Translations under genes and position numbers: made by a program
Source: Blepharisma japonicum
Lineage: Eukaryota > Ciliophora > Heterotrichea > Heterotrichida > Blepharismidae
Direction of reading: 5' to 3'
Assembly: GCA_949751835.1 (NCBI GenBank)
Contig: CATKHK010000056.1
Location: 186,001-250,000 of the forward strand
Length of the DNA: 64,000 nucleotides
The notes under the pieces: model-generated
Databases searched by the model: none
The model's input: the letters and a program-made list of their open reading frames with translations, nothing else
What the model was told of the DNA's origin: nothing
Part shown: piece by piece, positions 34,246-64,000 of the stretch
How the letters are laid out: every line of letters starts with the position of its first letter
How positions within the stretch are numbered: the stretch's first letter is position 1

Positions 34246-35604
34246 TTATTCTAAGGATTTATACCTCATATTTTCTGTGCTGAAGCCAGGAATTCTGAAC
34301 TGCGTTGAAAACTCAAAGACTTCTTGCTTAAGAGCTTTGATTTTTTCATTTTCTGGGATTGCAGCTAAAAAGTCATTGAGTTTTTTACCAGTCGTTTCTT
34401 GGATTTCCAATGAAATCTGTATAGCTCTGTGCAAGAAATGGGCAACAGTTTTGAAATTGTCTTCATTAAGCCCTCTGGTTGTCATAGCTGGAGTTCCTAC
34501 TCTGACACCTCCAGGGGTTAAAGCTGACGTATCTCCTGGGACTGAATTTTTATTCAGGGTGATTCTGACAGCGTCACAAACTTTTTCAAATTTATTCCCA
34601 GTGAGTCCTTGTGGTCTTAAATCCCAAAGCATCAAATGGTTATCAGTTCCATTAGAAACTAAGGTGTATCCTAAGCTTATCAATTCATCAGCAAGCGCCC
34701 TAGAGTTTTTCACAACTTGTCTGGCATACTCTTTGTATTCCTCTGTTGCTAGCTCTCTTAGCTGAGTTGCTACACCTGCTATATTGTTATTGTGAGGACC
34801 GCCCTGAAGAGCTGGGAATACAGCTCCGTTGATGCGGTCTTCAAGTTCTTTTTTATAAAAAATAATTGCACTTCTTGGTCCTCTCATTGTTTTATGAGTG
34901 GTTGTAGTCACCACATCACAGTATTCAAATGGATTAGAAAGGACTCCAGACGATACTAGTCCACTGAAATGAGCAATGTCTGCCATCAAATAAGCACCGA
35001 TATCTGTAGCAATTTTTCTTAGTCTTGCATAATCATAGTCTCTAGGGTATGCACTAGCTCCACAAATTAAAATTTTTGGCAAGAAAAGTTTGGCTTGGTT
35101 TTCAAGAGCATCATAATCAATTCTGCCTGTTGACATGTCAAGCTGATATGGAAGAGATTCAAAGAAAATTGAACTAGCTGAAAGCTTCTTCTTAGCAGTG
35201 TAGTAACCATGTGTCAAATGTCCACCAGAAGGCAAAGCAAGGCCCATAATTCGGTCATGAGGGTTAAGAAGAGCCGTGTATACTTCAAAATTAGCAGGGC
35301 TTCCTGAGTATGGCTGAACGTTTACACCCCAAGTATGGGCATCTAGACTGAATGCAGCCAGTGCTCGTCTTTGACAGAGGCTTTCTACTTGGTCGATATA
35401 TTCATTCCCTCCATAATATCTCTTCCCTGGTAGTCCTTCACTATATTTGTTTGTTAAACAAGATCCGAGACAGTCCATGACAGCTCTAGATGTGAAATTT
35501 TCTGAAGCAATCAGCTCGATTCCTCCCCATTGTCTGCATTTTTCATGTTCGATTATGTCGAAAAGCTCCGGGTCAGCCTGTTCAAGTGATTGATCCCACT
35601 CCAT
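34246..35604 (-). CDS. SHMT: serine hydroxymethyltransferase
   Basis: 452 residues, ATG to TAA, without TGA codons or introns. It has the full SHMT pattern: [17 protein letters not shown], the substrate region [20 protein letters not shown], the PLP-lysine block [12 protein letters not shown] with Lys238, and [14 protein letters not shown]. The enzyme converts serine and tetrahydrofolate to glycine and 5,10-methylene-THF, feeding one-carbon metabolism. The N-terminus ([14 protein letters not shown]) lacks a presequence, so this is probably the cytosolic form. Length is slightly under the human cytosolic enzyme (483). Confidence 0.97.
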
Positions 35605-38909: not shown

Positions 38910-41900
38910 CTAAGATGAAAAATATTGCTTGTATTGCTTGAGTCTTGTAAGCTGCTCCTCCTTTGGCCCTCTTTTCCAAGTGAAAAAGGCTTCTAGCAGT
39001 ATATTCTGTGGACGATACATGACTGATTCCCATTTTTCGATTGCATTTCGGAGCTTCATTTTCTGCTTATAAGTCATGCTGAATCTGGGATTTCTTAAAA
39101 TATGCCAAGACTCCCATAGGAGTTTATGTTTCTTTTTATTGAATGCGTGGGAAATTTCTAAAGCTAAGGTGACGTTTTTGTCGTGAGAAATGGATTTGGC
39201 CATCTTCCACCTATCAAAAGACTCTTTTAAGAGATACTTGTGGTGGCTGTGGAAATTCATGATCATAGACTTTAAATAGGGTGCAATTAAGGCGATATCA
39301 AATTTAACGAGGGACTCATCATTAATACTCCATATAAAGGACGGATCATTTTCATTGAGGTTTTGGAAGTATTCACAGATTCTGATGCTGAAAAGCTTGC
39401 CTAATAGTTCAAGCCCTCGGCATATTCTGCGTTTTCTTCCTTTAATTCGGCTCCATGACCTTATAATTAGTAGAAGCAGCCTTTTAGAGAATTTGGTTCG
39501 CAAAAGCTGCTCATAGCTTTCGAGGCGTTTCATTTCGGAAACAAGGCTTCCCCAGAGGTGAATTGACCTTTGCAGAATTTTGGCGTACTTTCTTCGATAT
39601 AGGTTCAAAATTGCTTTTGCAGCCTTTTCTTTTTTGGCTTTTTTGCTGTTGATACTTGAGAACTCAGCCTTTATCCGAGAAAATGCAAAAGATTTTCTGG
39701 TTTTGAAGGGAGTAAATGCCAATTTGGTAAATACATCTAAGAGCTCTTTTTTTATTTGAGTATTGAACTTTGAGTTTAGTCTCCAAGTTCTTAGATTTTC
39801 TTTTAATGCAGCATTTGATCTTATTCTTTGCGTCCTTAGTAATTGCCTCAGCGCTTTATTTTGCTTCTTATACAATGAAGACAATCTGAATAAGGGTCGA
39901 CATCTTTTATTCGCAATGTTAGAAATAAGCTCAACCATTAAAGTTGCCCCTTCTGCTTTGTATGAGCTAATCACTTTTAGCTGCTCCAAGAAATCTTGGT
40001 AGTTCATGAAAATCTGCCTTTTAAGAATATCAGAAAATCTTCTGAGTCCATATGAAGTATATTCTGCCTTATAATTTTTAGTTCTCATATATAGCCTCCA
40101 TCTAACCCATGAGTGTTGTTTTGTTGTTTTAGTGTACCTTCTTATTGCTTTAAAGAGCATTTCTAGCCCAATTTCTTTTTTCTTAAGCCCTTGCTTTGAT
40201 TTTCTATTTGCAAGCTTTAATATATTCATACAATATTTAAGCTGACCAAGGGCATATGAATCTATTGCCTGAGTGAAACTCATAACCATCAACGCTTGAG
40301 AATCTTTCGGAATTTTATACCTATTAAAAATTGCCAAAAATACAGAAAATGCATAAAACTCTTTTGCTAGCACTTTTTTCTCTATAATTTCTACAAAGGA
40401 TCGAATATGAGTCTGTGTCCTTAAAGTCATCAAGTTTTCTTCTGTCTGATGATGATGGAGACCCATTTTTTCTTCATATATTTTATGGACTGTTTTTAGC
40501 TTCCATGAGCTTAAAGATCTCAGTAATATATGGTCAAACCTTGTTATAGAATTTTCCAAAATTACCTTTAGCTTATTATTTCTTTCCTTCTGCAAAAGAA
40601 TAGTATTGGTATAGAGAATTGAAAATGCTGATTCTATTTGGTTTCTTATTAAGTTTGTGATTGCGTTTGCTAAGTCAATCATTTTGGATTTTGGAATCTT
40701 TTTATGCATAGCTAGAATTTTGATATTCTCCATAGTTATGCTTTCAGTTTGTTTTAATTCTTCGCTAGATGGTTCAATTGATACAGATTCTATTTGGGCC
40801 TGAGTTTCTGTTGAGATAGGTTTTCCAATTGGCGTATTTTTAAACTTCTCTATTCCCGATTTATTTTTTTGAATTTTGGGGTTTTCAATTTTCTCATCAG
40901 TTATGTTTTTATTTTGTTTTAATTCTTCGCTAAATGGTTCAGTTGATGAGGATTTTCTTTGAGCTTGAGTTTCTGTCAAGATAGATTTTTCAATTGGCTC
41001 ATCTTTAAACTTTTCTGATCCTGGTATATTTTTTTGAATTTTGAGGTTTTCAATTTCCTCGTCAGTTATGTTTTCAAATGGTTCAGTTGATGAAGATTCT
41101 ATTTGAGTTTGAACTACTGACGAGATAGGTTTTCCAAATGGCTTATCTTTATAATATTCTGATCCCGATATATTTTTTTTAACTTCTGGGCTTTCTACTC
41201 TCTTACCAGTTATATTCTCATTTTCCCTTAATTCTTCTTTAGATGGTTCAATTGATGGAGATTTTATTTGAGCTTGAGTTTCTGTCGAGAAAGGATTTCT
41301 AATTGGCTCATCTTTAAAGTACTCTGATTCCGATTCATTTTCTTGAGTGGTAGGGTTTTCTATTCTCTTATCATTTATATTTTTATTTTGCTTTAGTTCT
41401 TCGCTAGATGGTTCAATTGATGAAGATTTTATTTGAGCTTGAGTTTCCGTCGAGATAGGATTTCTAATTGGCTCATATTTAAGCCTCTCTGATCCAGATA
41501 CATTTTCTTGAATTTTGGTAGGGTTTTCTATTCTTTTATCAGTTATATTTTCATTTTGCTTTAGTTCTTCGCAAGATAGTTCAATTGATGAAGATTTTAT
41601 TTGAGCTTGAGTTTCCGTCGAGATAGGATTTCTAATTGGTTCATATTTAAGCCTCTCTGGTCCAGATATATTTTTTTGAATTTTGGGGTTTTCTAAACTC
41701 TTATCATCTATATTTTTATTTTGCTTTAGTTCTTCACTAGATGGTTCAATTGATGGAGATTTTATTTGAGCTTGAGTTTCTGTCGAAATCGGTTTTCTAA
41801 TTGGCTCATCTTTAAAGTACTCTGATCCTGATATATTTTCTTGAGTGGTAGGATTTTCTATTCTATCATCAGCTATAATTTTATTTTGCTTTAATTCTTC

Positions 41901-44900
41901 GCTAGATTGCTCAATTGACGGGGATTTTATTTGAGCTTGAGCCTCTGTCGAGAAAGGTTTTTTATTTGACTCATCTTTAAAGTACTCTGATTCCGATTCA
42001 TTTTCTTGAGTGATAGGGTTTTCTATTCTCTCATCAGCTATAATTTTATTTTTCTTTAATTCTTCGCTAGATGGTTCAATTGATGGGGATTTTATGTGAG
42101 CTTGAGTTTCTGTTGAGATATGTTTTCTAATTGGCTCATATTTAGGCCTCTCTGATTCAGATATATTTTTTTGAATTTTGGAGTTTTCTATTCTCTCATC
42201 AGCTATATTTTTATTTTGCTTTAATTCTTCGCTAGATGGTTCAAGTGGTGAAGATTTTATTTGAGCTTGAGTTTCTGTCAAGATCGGTTTTTCAATTGAC
42301 TCATCTTTAAAATTTTCTGGATCTGATATATTTTTTTGCGTTTCTAGGTTTTCTAAACTCTTATCATCTATATTTTTATTTTGCTTTAATTCTTCACTAG
42401 ATTGTTCAGTTAATGAAGGTTTTATTTGAGCGTGAATTTCTGCTGAGATATACTTCCCAATTTTTTCATCTTTATAGCACTCTGATTCCGATATATTTTC
42501 TTGACTAATAATAGGACTTTCTATTATCTCATCAGCTATATTTTCATTTTGCTTTAATTTTTCTTTGGATTGTTCAATTGATGAAGATTTTATTTGAGTT
42601 TGACTTGCCAAGAGGTCTTTACTCTGTTGTTGATCTCCATAACATTCTAAATCTAAAATATTTTCTTGTATGATAAGACTTTCTGGACTTGCATTAGCAA
42701 TTGCAGTCGAGATTGATTTGTCTGTCTGCTCAGGCTCAATAATTTTTGATTTTAGAATATTTTCTTGAATAGCCTGGTTCTCGATTTTCTCATAAGTTTT
42801 GATTTCATTTTGCTTTAATTCTTCACTATATGTTTCAATTAATGGAGCTTGACTTGTCAAGATTGATTTACTCTGTCGCTGATCTCCATAGTATTTTGAA
42901 CCTGAAAGATTCTCTTGTATGATCAGACTTTCTGGAGTTTTATCAGCTATTTTTTCATTTGACCTTAATTTAGCACTAGATAAATCTGCTGTTATCGAAA
43001 TTGGTTTCTCCATCTGCTCGAACTCAATAATTTTTGTTTCTGAAGTAATTTCTTGAATAGCTGGGTTTTCGATTTCCTCTTCAGTTATGCTTTCAGTTTG
43101 ATTAAATTCTTCGCTAAATGGTTCAATTAATTGGGGTTTTATTTGAGCTTGAGTATTTGTTAAGATATGTTTTATAATTGGCTCATCTTTAAACCTCTCT
43201 GATCTCGACATAGTTTTTTGAATTTCGGGATCTTCTATTCTCTCATCATTTTGCTTTAATTCTTTATTATATAGATCAATTAATGGAGACTTTATTTGAG
43301 CTCTAGGTTCTGTTAAGATAGTTTTGCCCATTTTTTCATCTTTGTAGCACTCTGATTCCAATATATTTTCTTGACTTGCAGGGTTTTCTTTTCTCTCAAC
43401 AATGATATTTTCATTTTGCTTTAATTCTTCATTAGACGGTTCAAAAGATGAAAATTTTATTTGGGTCTGATTTGTCAGAAGGGATTTACCTTGTTGCTGA
43501 TCTCTATAGCATTCTGACCCTGAAATATTTTCTTGTGTAGTCAAACTTTCTGGAATTTTATCTTCTATATTTTCATATGGCCCTAATTTAACACTAGATG
43601 AATCTATTGATGAAGGCTTTATTTTACTTTGAATTTCTCTTTTTTCTGCAGATTTAATCGTTTTCTCATCTTCATCATATTCTGACTCTAAAATATTTTC
43701 TTGATTGGTAGCATTATTTATTTTTTCATCTAATATTTTTTCATTTAGCTCTATTTCATCACTAGATAATTCTTTTAAGAAAGGCTTTATTTTGTCTTCT
43801 CGCAACTTATGAATTTCCACATTAGCCTTATCAGCATTCTTAATTTTATAGACAAATGTATCTGATAAAGGACTTGCAGATCTTATATTATAATCCTTTT
43901 CTTCATTAATACTTATTATTTTTGGATCATCTGATTCTCTATATATTGAATCCTCTAATTTCTCTCCTTCAGAAACTTCAGGAATTCCAAATTGGCTGCT
44001 TGGATTTTGAGGATTTAATAATAAGTTTTCATTATCAGATTTTTTCAGAATGATCTGGGGAGTTTCTTGGTTATCTTTTTCATTTACTTTGCTTGAACTG
44101 GCTATTTTTGATGGATAAACAGGTGTTTCTTTTTCAATAACCTTACTTTTCGATAAATTTAAAGTGCTTGTGCTCGATATTGAAGAAATATTTTCTAATA
44201 AGGCATCTTGTGTTTTATTTTTATATTCCTCAAATAATGAGGATTCATGCTCATCTTTAAATGTTTCTGCTATTATACATTTATCTTGAGAATTAGAAAT
44301 AGAGTCTTTGTCTTTTGGCTCTTGGTTTATATATTGTGAAGATTGCTTTTCACTCCTTTGAGGCTTTTTTTGTTTTTTAATAATGGCTTTTTCAGTATGA
44401 GCAGGCTTTGAGTCCTTAGTTTCTTCTTTCATTTGTTGCTCTTGAGATTCCTCTGAAATTATTGGACTGCCCAAATTTGGTTTTGCTGGAAAATCTTCAT
44501 CAACCCTGAGCACATTAGTATTTTTGTTTTGAGAAAATTCTTCTGATGACTTATCTTTATATTGCTTTAATTCCACTTCATTGATATTCGTTGAAATTGA
44601 TTGATGTTTTTGTTTGTCTTCATAATTTTCCAATTCTAAAATATTTCCTTCTATTTCCTCATCAATTATTTCTTCATTAATCTTTAATTTATCACTGGGT
44701 GATTCTATTGATGTAGGTTTTTTTGGATCCTCTCTCGCTTTATTAAGCTTCATATCTGCAATGGAAGCATTCTCTTTATCAAAAATTATTTCTGAAGGTT
44801 GATTTTCAGTTGTTATATTTGACTCATTTTCTGCAATTATTAATTTTGTTTTTAGCTCGCTAGAATTCGGCTGATCTATGCTTGAACTATCACTCTGTGG

Positions 44901-47900
44901 ATATTTTAGCATTATCTTAGAAGTTTCTTCTTCATCTTTTTCGCTAATTTCACTTGAACTGCTACTTTTTAAAGGATCAACAAATTTTTGTCTTTCAATA
45001 GATTTGTTTTCTGGTTGATTTATAATGTTTTTGTCTGTCAAATCAAAAATTTTTGGAATTGAGGCATCTTCATTCTTAATTTTATCTTCTTTAAAAACTA
45101 AGGATTCACCTTCATATTTGAATGCTTCTCTTTTATCTTGCAAATCTTGATCTTGGGAAAAGAAAATAGTGCCTGTCTCTTTTGATTCTTGGCCTATAAA
45201 TTGTGGTGATTGATTTTCACCTCTTTGACTTGCTTTTCGACTTTCAGTATCAGATTTTTTAGATTGAGCAAATTCTGAATTGCTAATTTCTTCTACAGCT
45301 GTTTGCTTTGGAAGCACTTTTGAATAAAATAAATTATCAGAATCCAATAAGTTTATAGCTTCTGTTGGTAAACTTTGCTGGAGTTCAGTGCTTTGAGAAA
45401 ATGATTCAATTGATGCATTTTTATCGTCATTTAAATCCATTTGAAGTTGGTGTGCTGAAATTAATTGTATATCTTTATGACTTTCTAATTCTGAAGCATT
45501 TACTTCTTTTTCCTCATTAAATTTTTTATTAAATTGATCAATACCAGGCTCTATTGATTCATCTTTTATTAAGTTCTCTATCAGCTTGCCTGGCCTAATA
45601 TCAGATAAGGAAGCATTCTTATCTTCATCAATAGCTGTTTCTGAAAATTGAATATTAGAAGTATTTTTCTCAGCTGATCTTTGTATTTTTGAATCATCAG
45701 ATGTTTTTGCTATTATATCCTCAAGTTTTTCTTCTTCTGAAATTTCAGCACCTTCAAATTGTTCACTAGATTTTGGTTCATCTAAGCTTGAGCTTTCGCT
45801 ATCTGGATACTTTAGCATTATCTGAGCATTTTCTTCTTTATCTTTCTCGCTAACTTCGCTGGAACTGCTACTGTTTAAAGGATCAAAAGAGTTTTCTATC
45901 TCAATAGATTTGTTTTTTGGTTGATTTATAATACTTTTGTCTGGCATTTCAAAATTTTTTTCAGGTGTGACATCTTCGCTCTCGATTTTATCATCTTTAA
46001 AAGTTGAGGATTCACCTTGATCTCTGAATATTTCTCCTTTATCTTGCAAATCTTTATATCGGGAAGAGAAAATAGTATCTGTGTCTCTTGTCTCTGGGCT
46101 TATATATTGTGGGATTTTCTCTTCACATTTTTGCTCGATCTCTTTTGCTATATTATCTCTGGAATGAGTAGGTTTTGACTGCCAATTTTTTTGATAATGT
46201 GCAATATAATCTGTTCCCTTTGACTCCCTGCTTATGAATATTGGGGATTGATTTTCACTTCTTGGAGACTCTTCCACTTTTTCAATAAAAGTATTTCTAG
46301 ACTCAATAGGTTTTGATTTCTCATTTTCTTGGTAATGGAAAATATAATCTGTTCCTTTTGGTTCTCTACTTATAAATTGATGGGATTCATTTTCACTTCT
46401 ATGAGGCTCTTTCACTTTTTCAATAAAAGAATGTTCTGATTCAATAGGTTTTGATTTCTTATTTTCTTCTTCAATTTCTTTTTTTATAGGTATCTCTGAA
46501 GAGTGCAGCTCTTCTGAGCTTGATGGAATTATTGTTTCTGCTGGCAAACTCCTATCAGGCTTGCAAACTTCAGTATTTTGCTGAAATGCGTTGGGTTGAG
46601 AAAGTGTTTCTATTGGCATATCTTTATTTGGATTATATCCTGCTGGATTTTGATTTTTTGAAATAGGTTGAAATTTTTGTTTGTCTCTAAAACCTTCAAG
46701 TTTCGATGAATATTCTTGAAGAGCAACATTTTCTGTTTCCTTATCAGCTACTTTTTCATTATGCTTAAATTTATCACTAGATAATTCCATTGATGAAAGT
46801 TTCATCGGATTCTTGGGATTTTTATCAGTTTTATCAGTATTCTTATCTTCATCACCACCAAATATTCCTGAAAATGGGTTTCCAGGTCTTATGTTTGCAT
46901 CATTTTCCTCAGCTATTCTTTGTATTTTTAATTCATCAGGAGTTTTTACTTTTATGCTCTCAACTTTTTCTTCTTCTAATACTTTAACATCTTCATATTG
47001 ATCGCAAGAATTTGCTTTATCCAAGCTTGATCTTTCACTATTTGGATATATCATCTTAGGAGTTTCTCCTTCATCTTTCTCACTTACTTCACTTGAACTG
47101 CTACTATTTAAAGGATCAACACATCTTTCTTTTTCTATAGACTTGCTTTTTGGTTGATTTGTATGACTTTTGTCTAGCAATGAAGCAATGTGATCTTCTT
47201 TAAAGACAAGGGAATCTGCTTCATCTTTGAATATTTGTACTTTATCTTGGGAAAAGTAAATAGAGTCTGTCTCTTTTGGCTTTGTGCTTGCAAACTGCAG
47301 AGTTTTCTCTTCACTTCTTTGAGCTTGCTGCCTATCAGTAGCTGATACTTTTGATTGAACAGTTTCTGAATCCTTAATTATTTCTTCTTCATTTCTTTGC
47401 TTTTGAGGGTCTTTTAAATAGCTCAGACTGCCTGAACCCGACAAATTTATTATATCTGATTGTAAATTTTCACCAGGCTCAACAAGTTCTGATTTTGGCA
47501 CAATTGTATTGTCTTGAGAAAATATATCTACTGGCGTATCAATATTTTGCCTTAATTCTTCAACTTTCACATTTTTTATTTGCTTTTTACTCTCAAAAAT
47601 AGACTTGTCTACTTCCCCATCTCCACAGTTCTCTAATTCCAAAATGTTTTTCTGATAAATTTGACTTTCTATAGCCCTGTCCAGCCTGTCATTCTGATAA
47701 ATTGGACTTTCTATAGCCTTGCCCAGCCTGTCATTAGATGATTTTATTGAATGAGACTGTATTGGGTCTTCTCTCAATTTGATAATTTCTATATCAATTT
47801 TAGCAGTTTCTTTATTTTTATCATCAAAAATTTCTGTAAAAGGCTCCTCAATTTTCTTTTCTTCTAATGTTTCAATATCTTTATTTGACATGCTAGATTC

Positions 47901-50900
47901 CGAAGGATTATGTGATATGATTTTACTAACTAATTGATGAGGAGGCTCATCTTCTTTCTCTTTTTTATTTTCTTCGCTTAAGCTAGACAATTTCAAAGGA
48001 TCAAAAGATTTTTCTGTTTCAAGAAATTTGCCTTTTAATGGATTTGCAGCACATTTCTCAGATATTTCAGCAGCATTTATTGATTCAAAATCTTGGTTTC
48101 TATTTTTATTTTCCTCAATAAAAGAAAATTCATCTTTATCTTTGGATTTTCCTGTTTTTCCTTGCTCAGAATCCCCTTTCGGCTCTTGGCTTATTAGCTC
48201 TGTTGATTGCTTTACAGTTCTCGTTTTTGGACGTTTTTTAATAATAGCTTTTCCAAAATCAGTAGATCGTGGCTCCTTACTTTCTTCATCAATAGTTTGT
48301 TCTTGCAATTCTTCCATTGAGACCTTATTTTCTGGATTTGAAGTTTGTGTGCTTTCTGTTGGTAAAATTGTATCCGATGAATAAATCTCAGGATTTTGGT
48401 GTATTAATGCTTTATGAGAAATTGTGTGTTTTGAGGTATCTTTAATTTGCCTCAGCTCTTCATCCTTTATATTTTTAATTTGATTTTGAATGATAGGAAT
48501 GGATTTTTCTATTTCTTTTTCTTCATGAGCATCTCGTGCTGAGATATTTTGTTTAAATGCTGGTGATTCATTTATCTCATCAGTTGTTTTTTCATTTAAT
48601 TTATCTCTATATGTTTCTTCTGGTGCTAATAGATCTTTGCGAATTTTAATTGGCTCCTTATCAATTTTAGTAGTTGCCTTATCTTGTGTATCGCATATTT
48701 CTGAAAATTGATTTGTAGGCTTTATGTATAAATCATTTTCTTTTGAATAAATTTTTCTTTCATTATTCTGATTAATAGATTTTATTGCACTTATTTCATC
48801 AAGTTTATTTTCTTCCAATGTCTCAGAAGCATCAATTGAACTGTTTGATTTTTGAGAATAAAATGATAAATTTGAACTATCTGATTTTTCTGATTTAAAT
48901 TGAGGCGATTTAACTTCTTCCTTCCCTTTTTCATTAAGACTGCTTGGGCTGCTTAATTTTGAAGAATAAATAGTCATTTCTCCTTCAATAGACTTGCCTA
49001 GTGATTGATTTAAAACACTTTTGTCTTTAATTTCAGGAATAGTTCTTAATGAAGCTTCTTCGGTATTTATTTTATTTTCTTTAGTGAAAACAGATTTATG
49101 ATCTTTGAATACTTCTCCTTTTTCATTAATTCTTTCAGAATCTATTATTGGTTTCTCAGCAAAGTTTTTTGAGTCTTTATGCTTTTGTGTACCATAAGAA
49201 TTCAAGATTTTGTCCTTTGGCAAGAATATATCACTATCAGAATTTATTAAACCCTCATCTTTTTGCTCTTGATTTACTAATTGTGAATGCTGCTGTGCTG
49301 CATTTTGAATTTTCTGTTCTTTTTCAATTATATCTTTATCTGAATGAGAAATTTTTGGCTCTTTAATTTCTTCTTCAAATGTTTGTTTTTCAGATGCTTC
49401 TAAAGAGCGAGGAATTTCTGAAATAAAAGAATTTAGTGTTTCTATTGGTACATTCTTATAGTCTTCATGTGGATCAGTATTTTGCCTAAGCATGCTTTTT
49501 TGAGAGAAATCAGTTTCTGGGTTATCTTTATATTGATCTAATCGTTTAATAATTTTTTTTGGAGTCGCCTGTAAAGATTTGCCGAGCCTCTCATCTCCTT
49601 GACTTTGTAACTCAAAATTATTTTTTTGGAGAATAGGTGATTCGTTTCTCTCATCAGTGATTTTTTCACTTAATTTTTCTCTATTTGACTCTTCTCGTGC
49701 AGATTTTATTAAATTTTCTTCAGATTCCATTTCATTAATATTTATTGCTCCAAATATTTCTAAAGGCTTTGTAGTTTGCTTGTATGATTCATTTTTTCCT
49801 TTTTGGCTTTTCAAAATATCAGAGTTCATTGTCTTAACTTCCCCTAGTTTCTTTTCTTCCGAGGGATTAGCAATTTCATATAAGTCACGTGATAAATTTT
49901 GAATATCTGGTTGCTCCAGTGTGACTGAATTATCTGGTTTTAAAGGAGAAATAGCCATTTCATCTTTAATAAATTTACCTATTGGCAAATTTGAAACACT
50001 TTTGTCTGAAATTTGACTGTTATTTTCTAATAATAAATCTTGAGTTTTGATTTTGTCATCTTTAACAAACAACTGCTTAATATTATCTGCTTTTTTCTGT
50101 ATAGGGTTTATTTCTTCTTGATATTCATTAATTAATTGTGAAGATTGCTTTGCAGTTCTTTGGGGTTTTATCTGCTTTTTAATTATAGGTTTTTCAGTAT
50201 AAACAGATTTTGTCTCTTTAATTTCTTCTTCAATTGTTTGATTTTTAGGTGCTTCTAAAGAAGATTCTATTTTTGAATCTAATTTAATTGAAGAATTAAC
50301 TATTTCTGGCATCAAATTTTCACTATGTTCATATATTTCAATGTTTTGTTGAGCTAAATCTTTTTGAGAAAAAGTTTCTTTTGTTGTATCCTTATTTTTA
50401 CCCAATCCTTCATCTTTTTGGTTTAGCATATATGTTTTACTTGCCGATATAGGCTTGCTTATAAAATCGTCTCTATAAGGTTCTGGCTCAATAATATTTT
50501 TTTGAGGGTTCGGTGATTTATTTCTTTCATTTGCTGCTTTTTCATACAATTTATCTATTGTTTCAGACTTTATTGGTTCTTCTTTTTCTTTGCCCTTTAT
50601 CTCTGTAAATGGATTTGTATTACTTATAGTGGATTCATTTTTGCCCTTGCCTATTGGGATACTCTTATTATCAAACTTTCAATCTATTGCTTCCTGGAAT
50701 TTTTTCTCTTCTAAACTTTCTGTGGTATCAATTAAGTTACCTTTTTTTGAAGAATGAGATGCAAAAGTTTGGCTCCCTGATTGCTCCAACATGATTTGGC
50801 CAGACTCTTTTTCTCGCTTTATTGCTTTTTCATTTGTTTCACTTGAGCTAATTGGCTTTAAAGGATAAAATGATATTTCTTTTCCAAGAGATTTACCTTC

Positions 50901-53900
50901 AGATGGATTTAAAATACTTTTATCCAGTATTTCAGAGTTTTTTTCAAATGATTTTTCTTGAGTCTTAATTTTATCTTTTTTAGCAAAAGTAGGCTCGCTG
51001 TAATCTTTGAACGGTTCTGATTTCTCTTTAGTCTTAATTTTTTCTTCTTTTGCAAAATTAAATTCACTGTAATCTTTGAAAGGTTCTGCTTTCTCTTGTA
51101 AAAATTCTGATTCTTCCAGAAATTGATCATTTAATAGTGAAGATTGATTTGTAGTTTTTTGAGCCTTTAGCTGTTTGTTAATTGAAGGTTTTCCTAAGCC
51201 AAAAGATTTTGTCTCTTTAATTTCTTCTTCAATTGTTAGCTTTTTAGGATCCTTTAAAGAATATTCTACTTCTGAATCTAATTCATTAGAACTAATTGTT
51301 TCTTTTGGCAAATATGCATCAGTTTTATACCCTTCAATAGGCTGTTGAGATGATTTTTTTTGAGGATAAATTTCTTGAGGTTTATCTTTATATTGATTTA
51401 GCTCATCAACTTTTGTATTTTGCATTTGTTTTTGGATTGCTGGAGTAGATTTATCTAGTAGCTTATCTATATAGGCTTCTCTTTCAATTAAATTTTTTTG
51501 AAGAGCAGACTGCTTATTTTTCTCCTCAGCAAAAGTAGACTCACTGTAATCTTTGAACGGTTCTGATTTCTCTTGTAAAAATTCTGATTCTTCCAAAACT
51601 TGATCATTTAATGGTGAAGATTGATTTGTAATTTTTTGAGTCTTTAGCTGTTTTTTAATTGGAGGTTTTCCTAAGCCAAAAGATTTTGTCTCTTTAATTT
51701 CTTCTTCAATTGCTACCTTTTTAGGATCCTTTAAAGAATATTCTACTTCTGAATCTAATTCATTAGAAATAATTTCTTTTTTCAAATATGCATCAGTTTT
51801 ATACCCTTCAATAGGCTGTTGAGATGATTTTTTTTGAGGATAAATTTCTTGAGGTTTATCTTTATATTGATTTAGCTCATCAATATTTGTATTTTGCATT
51901 TGTTTTTGACTTGACGGAGTAGATTTATCTAGTAGCTTATCTATATAGGCTTCTCTCTCAATTAAATTTTTTTGAAGAGCAGACTGTTTATTTTTCTCGT
52001 CAATAGATTTTTCCTTTGACTTTAATTTATCTTTATATGACTCAATTGATAGATCCTCGCTCATTTTGATTGACTCCATATCAGCTTTAGAAGCATTCTT
52101 ATTTTTATTCTCAGATATATCAGAAAAAGGATCTGCGCTTCTAAGATCTTCATTGTTTTTATATGAACCACTTGATTTTGAAGAATGAGATGATAATTTC
52201 TTGTTCTCTGATCGTTTCAATATGATTTGGTCAGGCTCTTCTTCTCTTTTTTTGTCTTTTTCACATATAGTACTTGAACTGCTTGGTTTTAAAGGATAAA
52301 ATGATATTTCTTTTCCAATAGATTTGCCTTTTGATGGATTTAAAGTCCTCTTGTCTGATATTTCAGCGGCTTTTTCTAATGATTTTTCTTGAGTCTTAAT
52401 TTTGTCTTCATAAGTAAAAATGGGTTCCTTATCACTTTTTAACGGCTCTTCTTTTCCTTGTAAAAACTCTGCTTCTTCTTGAACTTGGCCATATAATTGT
52501 GAAGATTGTTTTGCAGTTCTCTGAGCTTTTGGTTGTTTTCTTATAAGTGGTTTTCCTAAACCAGAAAATTCTGAGTCTTTAATTTCTTCTTCAATTGTTA
52601 ATTTTTTAGAATCATCTGGGAGATATCCGCATTCTGGACCTTGCTCATTTGAGCAACTAATTATTTCTTTTGGCAAGCCTACATCAGGTGTATATGCTTT
52701 AAGTAAATTTTTTTGAGAAAATATTTCTGTAGGCATGTCTTTATTAATCTTTAATTCTTCTGGTCTTATATCTCGCATCTGTTTTTGACTTGTCGGGATA
52801 GATTTGTCTATCTGCTCATCTCCATAACTTTCTGACCCAAAAGTAGTTTTTTGACTAGGGAGCTTTTTCTCATAAACTTCTTTTTCATTTGGATTAAATT
52901 TTTCTCTATTAGATTCAATTCCAATAGGCTTTATTGTATCTTCTCTGAATCTATAAGGCTCCATCTCAATTTTTTCTGTATTCTTATATTTACTGTCAAA
53001 TATATCTGAAGAAGGATTAGTTTTTCTTTTATTGTAATCGCTTTCATCTACTTTACTTTTTATTGGCTGATTATTAAATTTGCTTGCTCTTATTTCCTCA
53101 TATTTATTTTCTCCTGAATCCTCATTAATTTCACTGCTTGATTTTCAAGAATGAGATGGTAAATTTTGGTTGCTTGATTGCCCTGATGCGATCTTAGGCA
53201 AATCTTTTTTACTTTCTTCTTCTTTAACTTCACTTGAGCTGAAAGATTTTGGAATATGACGAGGTATTAGCAAAGGATCATCACTTTTTATTTCAAATTC
53301 TGATTTATTTTTATCAGGAAGGCGGTATGATATTCTATCTGTTAATTTCGCGGGCATTGCATCAGCTTTTGGGGTCTGCTTTTCAAATTCAAACTTTTCA
53401 AATTTCATTGGCACAGAACGAGTACTCAAAGGTTTTTTTCCAATCTCATCTTCATAGTTTGACGAATTAGTTTTGGCTTGCTCTTTTTCAAGATTTGGTC
53501 TTAATTTTGAAATTTTTGGTCTGTCTTCAAAGCTTTCTTCAGGCTCAATTTTTAATTTTTTAGTTAAAGCTTCTTGCTGGTATTTTACAGACATTATAGG
53601 TTTTTCTTTCTTTAAATCAGTGCCATCAATTATATTTTCTTCAATAAGATTTTCTTCATTACTTTGTTTTATTCTTTTGCTTAAATATTTGCTAATAATA
53701 TCTTGCTCATCTTTTGGCTTTGGATCAAAATATTTTTGTCTTTCAGGTCTATAGTCTGTTTGTTTATATTTAAGATCTTCATTAATTTCTTCAGTAAGCT
53801 CAGCTTTTTCACTTAATTTTTCTTTATTAATATTTTGTTCCTTTAGCTCCTCAAGATCACTTGAAATTCTTGACTTAGGCTTCACAGATTTTTGTTCTGC

Positions 53901-55637
53901 TTGCTTTGGAATTTCTTCCCCTTCTATATTTTTAGCATGTGATGATGGTGGTAACTTTTGTGGGAAATAGCTTGCTTTAGTACTTTTACTTTGGCTTGGT
54001 CTGCCTTTTATAATATCTTTTTCATTTTCGCTTTTCTTTCCAAAGCTCTCTACCTCTTTTTCTTTTAACTTATTAATGCTTTGCTTTTCATAGGTATTTA
54101 TCCAATTTTCTTTTATGTTTTTTATATCAAACACATTGGGCTCTTTTCCGGCTTTACTTTCTACTTCATTTTCTTGGCTTTCTTTTTCAATTTTATTTAT
54201 CTGATCTTCTACTTCATTTTCATCGTAAGGGTATTTCTCAGAAAAGCTTGGAAATTCATCATAAATCAAGACTTTTTGTCCTTCACAAGGGATAAAATCA
54301 TCTCTAATCTTTAAATCATCCGGCTGAGTAATAAATTCATTCTTTTCATCAGTAGGAGAAGATTCTCTTTTTGCTGGACTTGAGAAATCTTCTGACACCA
54401 CTCTTCCATCAGAATAATTTTTCGAAAAAAGTTTTTCAGCACATTTTGATTTTTTTAAAAACCAATCTTTTTCAAAGCTCAGGCCATCTCTTTTCTTTTC
54501 AACTGTTTTTTCTTTTTCAATAGTAAATCTCCTGGTCTTATTTTCTTTTACTTCTTCTATTATTTTTTCCTCATTTCCTTCTGCAAAATTCAGTGCGGTT
54601 TTTATTGCCGTGCTGCTTGTTTTACTATGGCCAAGTGTTTTTATATTATCGATACTATATTTTCTTCTCAAATCTACAGGCTCAGTTTCTTTCATTTTAC
54701 TTTTTAATCTATTTCTTACATTTTGTATGCTATCAAGCACAGACTTGATATCATTTTCTTTAATACTGACCGGCGATGTTTCACTATCAGTAACTTCAAC
54801 AATTTTTGGCTTTGTGCTGGCGATTTCTTCTGCTTTTAATTTATCTTCAATTAGTTTTAGCATATAAGCCTTCATTTTGGCCAGATTAAAAAATTTTTCT
54901 GCTTTTGACAAATAATGCTTATTCATTACATCAACCAAATTTTGAATGACTGCAGCCACTTGTATATGCTGTACAACAGGATGAATTACTTGTGTAATTA
55001 AATTTGCTGACAAACAATTTACAAGCTTAAACACAGCATCTATTTTTCTTATATAGATTTCATGGTTAATTTGGTTTTGCAAATAAGGGCTTCTAGATCT
55101 TCCAGTGCTAAATGAGCTGTTTTTTCTATGAAGGAGTTTTCGGTCTCTTGGAAAATAATTTCCTCTTTCTTCAATATCCTCCTTTTTTGACTTATAATGC
55201 TTATTATAAAACCTGTATACGTCTTTTCATTCACCTTTTTCTTCAATTTCTACTGTTAGGTCTCCATCACAAATTCTTTTGAATAGCCACAGTCTTTTAC
55301 TAATATTTCTTTTAATTCAGTTAGCTATTAGAGAGGCTGCATCAAGTTTGTAGCTTCTTACTTTGGCTTTGGGCTTGGGCAATGGGTGTTTTCATGTGCT
55401 GAATTCTTTTATTAATTCCTCACAGTTCTGAGGAAGTTTTAAATTTTTAGACTCTGGATCAGACTTTTTTGGAGTGTAAGTTGAGTAAACTGATGAATCA
55501 TGACGAGACATAGTGGGAGATGGAGGAATTAGCTGGTCGACAGGGGTAGAACATGCAGAGCAATCTCTAACTCGTTTATTTCTTTCAAACTTTCGGCGAG
55601 CTTGAGAAATTGAGGTTAATAGATTATCGATTTCCAT
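38910..55637 (-). CDS. giant repeat protein with Sfi1-like C-terminal region
   Basis: 5,575 residues in one frame of 16,728 nt, start ATG 55635-55637 (MEIDNLLTSISQARRKF), stop TAA. Five TGA codons are read as Trp (including 55392, 53145, 50679); 11.6 kb at the 3' side has none. Layout: ~1-190 a basic N-terminal part with Trp motifs (SLIANWIKRNISKRLWLFKR); ~190-3990 highly charged low-complexity sequence made of about nine degenerate ~300-residue modules; ~3990-4970 about eighteen 55-residue repeats; ~4980-5575 an Arg/Lys/Leu-rich helical region with about nine Trp motifs (SSWKLK, LRTWRL, IRSWSRI, FDRWKM, ESWHI, FFTWKR), like Sfi1 repeats that bind centrin. Likely a cortical or filament scaffold binding centrin-like proteins; the charged repeat part could act as a long spacer. 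The family is inferred from the C-terminus only. Confidence 0.85.
40735..43626 (-). repeat. 55-residue (165-nt) coding tandem repeat, ~18 copies
   Basis: Inside the giant gene. Unit core: IKSPSIEPSSEELKQNKNI, then DERIENPxIQENISGSE, then YFKDEPIRKPISTETQAQ. Central units (about 41,200-42,400) are most alike, with near-identical stretches; outer units decay and some are shortened. Always a multiple of three nt, so the frame is kept. Confidence 0.92.
43700..52960 (-). repeat. ~300-residue degenerate module, about nine copies
   Basis: Inside the giant gene. Each copy holds in order: an EEEIKE..K...KK(Q/P)K..R..KQSS block, a KSI..E..FDPLKSSSSSE.SEKD block, a PQI.LK.S.S..SS block and an EEKKLEDI..-like block. 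The DPLKSSSSSE anchors lie near 52275, 50840, 49940, 48955, 47975, 47085, 45845, 44950 and 44085, spaced about 0.9-1.4 kb. Confidence 0.8.
51040..51998 (-). repeat. young tandem duplication of a 474-477-nt unit
   Basis: Two adjacent copies in the giant gene are almost identical at DNA level, e.g. the block starting AGGATCCTTTAAAGAATA occurs at 51246 and at 51723. The unit encodes QKNLIEREAYIDKLLDKSTP through KETKSFGLGKP and EESEFLQEK. They differ by one codon and scattered substitutions. Confidence 0.9.
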
Positions 55638-59175: not shown

Positions 59176-60657
59176 CTAAACTTTAGCTAACTTAAATCCT
59201 TTAGACAGGATCTGGTTTATTGCGAACTCTGTTCGGTCTAAATAAATCTCTGCGTGCCTTGGTTTGAAGATTAAGCTTGGTCTAACTCTTATGCTTTGAG
59301 TGCCACATGTGCCGACAGCGACCCCAAGCTCGAGCATTTCTTTTACAAATGCATTAGCCCAATCAGGAGATATGAAATCATAAGCTAAAAATGTTCCATA
59401 GCCTCTAATATTGGAAATGGGATACTTTTGAGATAAGGATGAAAGGGAGTTCTTGAGCACCATTCCAACACGCTCTGTATGTCTTAACAAATTATCATTG
59501 TCCATGACCTCTCTAATTTTTCTTAAATTGAGTAATCTAACTGGATCTCCTCTAGTTGAGTTATATAATGCATAAGCTCGTGTAGGTCTTAAATGTGGCT
59601 TATAAAATAGCCCAGAAACTTGTAATTTCTTCGCAAATGTGACGATATCAGGATCAGCTCTTCCACCCCAATGCTCATGCCCCCAAAATCTGCCAGTCGG
59701 ACCTCCACCGGTCTGTACTTCATCTACAATAAACAAGGCTCCATATTTATGTGCAATTTCTTGTACGCCTATATAGAAGTTCGGAGAAGCTGATTTATCG
59801 CCTCCTTCTGCAAGGATTGGCTCAATAATAACCCCTGCAATTGGGTTTTTAGCTGCTTTAAATATTTTTTCTACCTCAGACAGACATCTTTGTTCTTCTT
59901 TAATATTATGGGCTTCATTCAGATGGTAAGGGTGTTTAATATCTGGAAAAGGAGCTTTAGGCCAATTTAATCTTGGCTGACCTATTTTATTAATTGGTTT
60001 GCTATGAGTAGTTGATTGTGATGCCAAATTCCTTCCATGGAATGCGCTGCTAAAGGAAAGGATTTCCAATTGTTCTCCTTGATTATTCATAGCCAGCTCA
60101 ATCTCTTTTTCACTTGGCTGAGCACCTCCTCGTTTATTTTTCATATAATAACTAAAGGCAATTTTATAAGCTTCTTCATTGGAATTTGACCCACACCCAC
60201 AGTTTACGATGACTTCATTAAGGTTTTTTGGGGCAATTGGCAATAAAATATCTCTGACCATCCTTGGCCAGTGGATATCTGGGACGTCTGCTGACTGTCT
60301 TTGAGCTAAATATTTTTGGTACTCTCCTGAGTAAATGTTCTGAATGAAAATTACATAAATCATATCTGGATGATTGTAGCCGAGAGGGAGGGAAGCAATG
60401 TGGCAGTAAGTGTCAAGAATAATATTTCCATCAACGTCGACTGCATAATTTCCTATTGACTTGTTGAAGTCTACGATGAATTTTATCTGATTATTGATTA
60501 CTGTGCGAAAATCTTGAGAAAATGTGCTATGGTTGCATAGGAGTTCTTTTGCTTTAGGTCCAGGGACAGAAGTGGTCATAAGTGGAGCGGATGGCTCTTC
60601 TAAGAGAATAGGATTGTTCACTTTGAACTTGTTAATAAGTCTAGTGACCAGTTTCAT
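59176..60657 (-). CDS. ABAT: 4-aminobutyrate aminotransferase (GABA transaminase)
   Basis: 493 residues, close to human ABAT (500), ATG to TAG. Class III aminotransferase pattern with GABA-T specific sequence: GNIILDTYCHIASLPLGYNHPDMI, NCGCGSNSNEEAYKIAF, SSAFHGRNLASQSTTHSK, IVDEVQTGGGPTGRFWGHEHW, and the PLP lysine in DIVTFAKKLQVSGLF (Lys343 or 344). The first ~20 residues are basic and could be a mitochondrial presequence. The enzyme converts GABA and 2-oxoglutarate to succinate semialdehyde and glutamate in the GABA shunt. No TGA codons and no intron. Confidence 0.95.
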   Translation of the reverse strand: MKLVTRLINKFKVNNPILLEEPSAPLMTTSVPGPKAKELLCNHSTFSQDFRTVINNQIKFIVDFNKSIGNYAVDVDGNIILDTYCHIASLPLGYNHPDMIYVIFIQNIYSGEYQKYLAQRQSADVPDIHWPRMVRDILLPIAPKNLNEVIVNCGCGSNSNEEAYKIAFSYYMKNKRGGAQPSEKEIELAMNNQGEQLEILSFSSAFHGRNLASQSTTHSKPINKIGQPRLNWPKAPFPDIKHPYHLNEAHNIKEEQRCLSEVEKIFKAAKNPIAGVIIEPILAEGGDKSASPNFYIGVQEIAHKYGALFIVDEVQTGGGPTGRFWGHEHWGGRADPDIVTFAKKLQVSGLFYKPHLRPTRAYALYNSTRGDPVRLLNLRKIREVMDNDNLLRHTERVGMVLKNSLSSLSQKYPISNIRGYGTFLAYDFISPDWANAFVKEMLELGVAVGTCGTQSIRVRPSLIFKPRHAEIYLDRTEFAINQILSKGFKLAKV

Positions 60658-62885: not shown

Positions 62886-64000
62886 TTAAGGTCTTTCAAT
62901 TTCTTCCACAGCAAACGGGGTAGCTGTCCTTCTCTTTTTCAGCCCTGCTTTTTCAATCTCTCCCATCATTGCAAAGTTAGTAAATATTTGATCAAGAGTA
63001 GTCTGGCTTAGCGCATATTCCGATATCTTGAGTTCTTTCTTATTCTTCTCAACAGTGCTAAACAAGTACCCAATAGTTTTATCTTCTTGTTTTCCTATCT
63101 TAAATTTATACAGTGACATATAATGCTCAATCATTGACACATCTGAAAATTCTGATTTCAGCCATTTCATCACATTATCCCCTCTATTTTCTACAATAAT
63201 CCAAGACACTAAAGCTTCTCTTGGTATATATCCATCAGTTGACATCTGTTGAAATAATCCAGACCCAGAGCCTTTTTCAGTGATTTCTTCAAATAATTCC
63301 TCGCTTCCTAGCTCTTCTAAACAAGGTTTAAGCTTATCTTCTTTTATGGTAGTCTCATCTCCAAGTACTGGATTTAAATCAGCACTACGTCTTTGTACAT
63401 GTTTTGGCTTCGGAATTGACAGTTTTACCTCAAGTTCATAGCCTTGTCCGAATTTATTTCTCAGATAAGTTGAAGTTCCAATGCATCTAAGTCTTCCTCC
63501 AACCATAATAGCAAGCCTATCACTAAGGGCTTCAGCTTCTTCCATAGAATGAGTAGTCAATACAACGGCTGAGTCACGTTTTTTGATATCTCCTAAAACA
63601 CTCCACAGCTTTTTACGTGTCTCAGGGTCCATTCCTGCTGAAGGCTCATCTAAAAATACAACTGTAGGATTCCCTATTAACGCAATGGCGACTTGCAGTT
63701 TTCGTTTATTACCTCCGCTTAGTGTCCCAGCCATATAATCAGTATATTTCACAAGATCAAGCTCTCTTAATAGATCTTTCGCAAGCTTATCAATCTTGTT
63801 TTTATTGATGCCTTTTACTTCAGCATAGAACCGTATATGTTCCATACAAGTTAACAATTCACTTAAAGCGTCAAATTGTGGACAATATCCTATGTTTTCT
63901 CTGGCTTTATCTAAATTGCTTAACACACTAAAACTGCTTAAAAAGGCTTCACCGTCAGTTGGGGCTATTTCTCCAGTCAGCATTTTAAAAGTGGTGGTTT
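62886..64000 (-). CDS. ABCA-type ABC transporter, C-terminal part (runs off the window)
   Basis: Partial; only the last ~371 residues lie in the window, and the 5' part continues past position 64000. The visible frame begins inside the Walker A region (TTTFKMLTGEIAP, the KTTTFKMLTG end of GxxGxGKTTT). Signature LSGGNKRKLQVAIALIG, Walker B VVFLDEPSAGMD, H-loop VVLTTHSMEEAEALSDRLAIM and the ABCA-type end GGRLRCIGTSTYLRNKFGQGYELEV are all present. The C-terminal ~100 residues show the ABCA regulatory extension with LTSTLLDQIF-like ending (SQTTLDQIFTNFA). The transporter class moves lipids across membranes. Stop TAA. Confidence 0.95.
   Translation of the reverse strand, partial: TTTFKMLTGEIAPTDGEAFLSSFSVLSNLDKARENIGYCPQFDALSELLTCMEHIRFYAEVKGINKNKIDKLAKDLLRELDLVKYTDYMAGTLSGGNKRKLQVAIALIGNPTVVFLDEPSAGMDPETRKKLWSVLGDIKKRDSAVVLTTHSMEEAEALSDRLAIMVGGRLRCIGTSTYLRNKFGQGYELEVKLSIPKPKHVQRRSADLNPVLGDETTIKEDKLKPCLEELGSEELFEEITEKGSGSGLFQQMSTDGYIPREALVSWIIVENRGDNVMKWLKSEFSDVSMIEHYMSLYKFKIGKQEDKTIGYLFSTVEKNKKELKISEYALSQTTLDQIFTNFAMMGEIEKAGLKKRRTATPFAVEEIERP

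Follow-up and report, generated by a model that had tools for sequence, protein, structure and literature searches.

The window analysed here comprises 64,000 nucleotides of the Blepharisma japonicum genome (C56:186001-250000) and contains one exceptionally long open reading frame (ORF) on its minus strand. This ORF runs from ATG to TAG at 38910..55637 and, when TGA is read as tryptophan (Trp), specifies a protein of 5,575 residues (643 kDa, pI 5.6), referred to below as the giant. Comparisons across the genome (45.2 Mb in 224 contigs) show that the giant, judged by sequence similarity, is the extreme-size member of a small gene family in which the ends are conserved and the middle varies.

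An earlier sequence-only reading of this stretch had described an uninterrupted frame that the standard code would break at five TGA codons in its 5' third, and both statements hold (55637-38910, minus strand). Translated with table 11, the ORF falls into pieces, and the five TGA codons (residues 82, 107, 137, 831 and 1653) are confined to the first 30% of the frame. From base composition, a stretch of 5,575 codons free of TAA and TAG has a probability of about 10^-165, a crude figure that assumes independent bases; the remaining sense frames over the gene hold 353 and 368 stops, and the antisense frames 212, 67 and 293. The start codon is supported by the paralog C1 (see below), which likewise begins MEI..LL and aligns with the giant from residue 1.

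The same reading had called the gene intronless. Heterotrich introns are 15-16 nt long (PMC9942806), and the Stentor-type signature consists of GTA, an A at position 10 or 11, and AG (PMC9505925). Sequences of this kind occur in the giant ORF twice at 15 nt and four times at 16 nt, compared with means of 5.0 and 4.7 after shuffling of the codon order. With no excess of candidates the sequence is consistent with an intronless gene, although a frame-neutral 15-nt intron could hide in the ORF. Such introns, together with the fact that the locus was judged from assembled sequence, leave a little room for the view that the giant is an assembly or annotation artefact and not a single gene. We consider this extremely improbable, however, as both family ends lie in one frame and in the order seen in C1, and as no exact 120-mer is repeated within the gene (two 100-mers are). 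The lack of a repeated 120-mer also makes a collapse of repeats during assembly unlikely.

Conserved ends in a gene family

Searching the genome with the two ends of the giant identified C1 (1,081 residues), and C1 and later members, used as queries in their turn, identified C103 (783 residues), C9 (781), C22 (797) and C10 (1,029). As these are drawn from the best-scoring genome candidates only, the family has at least six members. The N-terminal domain of the giant (residues 1-136; 55230..55637, minus strand), which starts MEI..LL, is common to all five of the other genes, and the C-terminal Trp domain (residues 4981-5340; 39618..40697, minus strand) to four of those five (C1, C103, C9 and C22). 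The former is centred on RSYKLDAASLI...KRLWLFK in the giant, with RxYKxDaaxLL as the family pattern. In the family alignment, its best-conserved piece spans residues 94-120 (RSYKLDAASLIANWIKRNISKRLWLFK; 55278..55358, minus strand), and Y96, K97, D99 and K120 are identical in 6/6 members. In blastp comparisons, the giant and C1 matched at the N-terminus (2e-10) and at the C-terminus (2e-15, ending near residue 5288), and C1 gave no match to giant residues 421-4950.

We assessed both domains with leave-one-out hidden Markov model profiles, each scored against 96 controls (46 control ORFs and 50 shuffles); C10 was omitted from the building of the C-terminal profiles. The N-terminal profiles recovered all six members, with E values from 8.9e-8 for the giant to 2.4e-20 and a best control anywhere of 0.0085; for the giant itself, the best of its 96 controls reached 0.15. 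The C-terminal profiles recovered five of the six (best control anywhere 0.025), the giant scoring 6.8e-14 at residues 5029-5227 against 0.78 for the best of its 96 controls.

Several weaker candidates were not counted as members, namely C86:9423, C71 and C140 (E 0.3-2.4), as well as C34 and C86:127118 (E 0.05 and 0.39, respectively), the C34 ORFs (L033) having been viewed by eye; L012 and L013, the sequence around C86:9423 and C71, served solely among the control ORFs of the motif and Trp-codon counts given below. Profile A1 gave 226 pattern matches in viral contigs and 281 in prokaryote contigs, none of which was confirmed by tblastn. Among the titles listed in literature searches that covered few subscription papers, none concerned this conserved-ends family, and the giant is probably present in public databases, if at all, only as a predicted protein without a name.

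Two relatives have peculiarities of their own. C9 (L030:2612-4954) stops inside the C-terminal domain, and by eye the three forward frames beyond it contain no obvious continuation. C10 (L032:1451-4537) carries a tandem array of 28-residue units, of the type KPIADYNYLEEDSSLYISKSNPxYHL and unlike the giant's repeats, in which the mark AD[YF][NS]YL occurs nine times with a spacing of 28 residues in 7/8 cases. The presence of this unrelated array in the middle of C10 points to constant ends and independently expanding middles.

The repeat middle of the giant

The middle of the giant grew by nested in-frame tandem duplication. A charged region (residues 311-820; 53178..54707, minus strand), which has no internal repeat at the threshold used and falls on the disordered side of a charge-hydropathy plot, precedes a repeat middle of about 4,100 residues, in which long units come first and a 55-residue piece follows. 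The long units (residues 821-3945; 43803..53177, minus strand) are degenerate. For four anchor strings, the copies that score above the best of 20 shuffles number 8, 7, 6 and 6, and 14 of the 23 distances between successive anchors measure 285-411 residues. The 55-residue (165-nt) unit corresponds to part of the long unit and has expanded alone from residue ~3946, giving an array of about 20 copies, some of them partial and none containing Trp (residues 3946-4980; 40698..43802, minus strand). Its consensus has 24 ungapped matches above the shuffle maximum; 20 of these lie at or beyond residue 3950, in some cases partial or overlapping one another, and four fall inside the long units. A recent duplication of 159 residues (477 nt) also lies within the long units (51052-52002, minus strand). 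The nested repeats reported by the sequence-only reading are real; its description of the protein as of very low complexity was too strong, the entropy being 3.70-4.05 bits in blocks of 500 residues (last block 75).

Tandem Repeats Finder (TRF) lists eight tandem arrays in the giant ORF, each with a period that is a multiple of three (165, 144, 165, 138, 42, 69, 477 and 15 nt); the window's other four arrays have periods of 21, 20, 12 and 18. The charged fraction of the middle is 0.34-0.41, and the middle lies on the disordered side of the charge-hydropathy plot. A genome search with residues 1480-1979, in which the 55-residue array was not searched separately, returned 11 places at E<=0.001, 11/11 inside the giant gene. 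Among ten 55-residue units, the pooled proportions of synonymous (pS) and nonsynonymous (pN) differences are 0.294 and 0.226 (pN/pS 0.77), and for the 159-residue pair they are 0.115 and 0.049 (pN/pS ~0.43, on just 10 synonymous changes). Judged from these ratios, selection within the repeats looks weak to moderate.

These data bear on the view that the expansion was passive, that is, that the two ends do the job, as they would in the relatives of 781-1,081 residues, and that the linker represents tolerated slippage or duplication without a function of its own. The lack of the repeat in C1, the confinement of the sampled repeat to the giant gene, the unrelated array in C10 and the weak constraint among the 55-residue units are all in line with this view. 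However, the frame has been preserved across ~4,700 codons, and the newer 159-residue pair has the lower ratio, albeit with the few synonymous changes noted above. We regard passive expansion as possible, although on the unlikely side.

Tryptophan motifs at the C-terminus

Beyond the end of the C1 match, the final stretch of the giant (residues 5341-5575 plus stop; 38910..39617, minus strand) contains eight Trp residues within 235 residues, spaced 18-41 residues apart except for one pair 3 apart. The Sfi1 motif has been given as Ax7LLx3F/Lx2WK/R (PMC5112337), and we tried eight patterns of this type, leaving the leading A unscored. A reduced form, Lx3[FL]x2W[KR], is present at 4/12 Trp in the C-terminus of the giant and at 8/43 in the six C-termini together (4, 2, 1, 0, 1 and 0 per member), compared with 1/182 Trp in unfiltered stop-to-stop frames and 1/193 in 46 non-overlapping ATG ORFs; relative to the latter control, the enrichment is significant for the giant (Fisher, 3e-5) and for the family (5e-6). 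Moreover, the loosened spacing Lx3[FLI]x2W occurs at 14/43 Trp (shuffle mean 1.18), whereas the reversed pattern, which is also compatible with an amphipathic helix, is absent from the six C-termini (shuffle mean 1.17). The Trp-motif C-terminus that had been noted from the sequence is supported, and it is enriched for a reduced Sfi1/centrin-binding core.

GSBP-type proteins of Spirostomum are giant centrin/spasmin scaffolds of contractile fibres. In contractile scaffolds that have been described, it is the repeats that bind centrin or spasmin (PMC12661445, PMC6189993), and the sequence-only reading had suggested that the giant could be a relative of such repeat-rich proteins. Size, repeats and the eight Trp of the last 235 residues would fit a relative of the giant Sfi1-type scaffolds of contractile heterotrichs, but residues 301-4980 hold only 5 Trp in 4,680, the 55-residue units hold 0, and no Pfam Sfi1 or PDB match was found at the ends. 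The proposed kinship was not borne out and, already weakened in this way, now appears very unlikely. Given Trp-poor repeats and no Pfam Sfi1 match, the giant would not bind centrin repeat by repeat, and a long, flexible tether with a centrin-type docking end is likelier.

Other known systems offer partial parallels. Sfi1-repeat (SFR) centrin-binding proteins include yeast Sfi1 and 13 Tetrahymena SFR proteins (PMC5112337). Like these, the giant belongs to a multigene family of a ciliate, and a minority of the family's Trp residues have hydrophobic residues at -7/-3 and K/R after. Unlike them, it has neither a Pfam Sfi1 match nor a protein-wide regular 33-residue array, and it combines a conserved N-terminal domain with a vast linker nearly without Trp. 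The giant also resembles PtCenBP1 of Paramecium (PMC6189993) as a giant, repeat-rich ciliate protein that may bind EF-hand proteins; in PtCenBP1-type scaffolds, however, the repeats are the binding sites, whereas the repeat middle of the giant is almost devoid of Trp.

A possible tether and its genomic setting

Because the middle of the giant is so poor in Trp and the scaffold model does not fit it, we tentatively propose that the protein is a two-ended tether with a role in the cell skeleton, a reading that we hold to be a serious possibility, if short of probable. The C-terminal Trp segments would be helical and would serve as binding sites for an EF-hand protein of the centrin/calmodulin kind. 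The N-terminal domain would anchor the giant to a second structure, for example a cortical or basal-body fibre, and the charged, disorder-prone middle would provide a flexible tether between the two ends. PEVK-type linkers of titin are long, charged, disorder-prone repeat segments between other domains, and the middle of the giant can be likened to them by architecture alone. The giant might thus combine an Sfi1-type docking end with a titin-PEVK-like string, and would not act like a centrin-studded rod. At a contour length of 0.36 nm per residue, a linker of 4,670 residues would measure about 1.7 micrometres when fully stretched. The tether reading is supported by the ends held in common with five genes, by the confinement of the sampled middle to the giant, by the in-frame periods of 8/8 arrays, by the constraint seen among the repeat units, by the charged and disorder-prone composition of the middle and by the direction-specific enrichment of the reduced Trp core; docking partner, location, helical state and mechanical role are put forward as candidates.

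A number of results weigh against EF-hand docking and the tether built on it. The strict motif LLx3[FL]x2W[KR] occurs once across the six C-termini, as LLx3FxxWK at Trp 5477 of the giant; the enriched form is one of eight patterns tried, and even the loosened spacing is missing at 29/43 Trp. C10, despite holding 7 Trp, is unrecognised by the C-terminal family profile (E 97). Searches with hmmscan against Pfam (E<=1; the whole giant in pieces and the five relatives) gave no Sfi1 and nothing above the cut-off, NCBIfam (the two giant ends and three relatives) likewise returned nothing above the cut-off, and PDB sequences (giant C-terminus and profiles A1, A3 and A4) returned no match. Across the genome, Pfam Sfi1 (PF08457) matched C113 above and C5 below the cut-off, and the giant was not matched. 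In addition, AlphaFold modelled residues 4980-5575 alone as all-helical at low confidence (mean pLDDT 38), and the charge-hydropathy index classed the two ends of the giant, like its middle, as disordered, so that this index discriminates weakly.

The missing Sfi1 family match, the all-helical single-sequence model, with its low confidence, and the Trp residues lacking Sfi1-type spacing would suit a helical structural protein, such as a fibre or coiled-coil bundle, in which Trp packs helices and binds no EF-hand protein. Against this stands the direction-specific enrichment of Lx3[FL]x2W[KR], including the basic residue at +1, and we judge this alternative to be rather improbable.

Should the ends of the tether attach to EF-hand fibres, with the linker determining its reach, the six genes would form a natural length series from 781 to 5,575 residues, which would let the effect of linker length on the ciliate cortex be tested. 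The linker comprises ~4,700 residues in the giant and a few hundred in the relatives. That the family consists of adjustable-length tethers, in which two constant docking ends flank a linker tuned in length by tandem duplication and which would function in the heterotrich cortex as molecular rulers or elastic straps, is a long shot. Its family relationship and the statistics on its motifs provide the giant with testable content, and the locus illustrates how nested duplication within a single gene can produce a giant protein whose termini remain recognisable.

The heterotrich origin that had been read from the window agrees with the use of TGA for Trp and with the telomere repeat, which together make a Blepharisma likely. 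In Blepharisma stoltei (41 Mb assembly), the telomere repeat is as in CCCTAACA, UGA encodes Trp and introns are 15-16 bp (PMC9942806). In the present genome, 168 overlapping matches to the triple repeat CCCTAACA were counted, compared with 0 for the reversed control, and among the places listed, those on C36, C47, C69, C78, C80 and C89 lie at the very start of the contig. In a Pfam scan of ten window ORFs, seven were without a match at E<=0.001; the neighbours identified are a serine hydroxymethyltransferase (34246-35604), a class-III aminotransferase (59176-60657) and the end of an ABC transporter (62886-63983). Elsewhere, the ORF that contains the Sfi1 match of C113 (20761-21018, E 8e-6) is long (L014:1602-4271), and its start appears leucine-rich-repeat-like by eye.

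The distribution of Trp codons within genes was also recorded. In the six family genes (the giant; L011, L029-L032), TGA and TGG number 16/5, 1/4 and 12/30 by thirds, the TGA share being higher in the first two thirds than in the last (p 0.005), and their last 60 codons contain 0 TGA and 8 TGG. The 46 other ORFs, with 26/46, 25/40 and 13/43, display a weak trend (p 0.07), with p 0.31 for their last 60 codons. TGA is possibly avoided close to gene ends.

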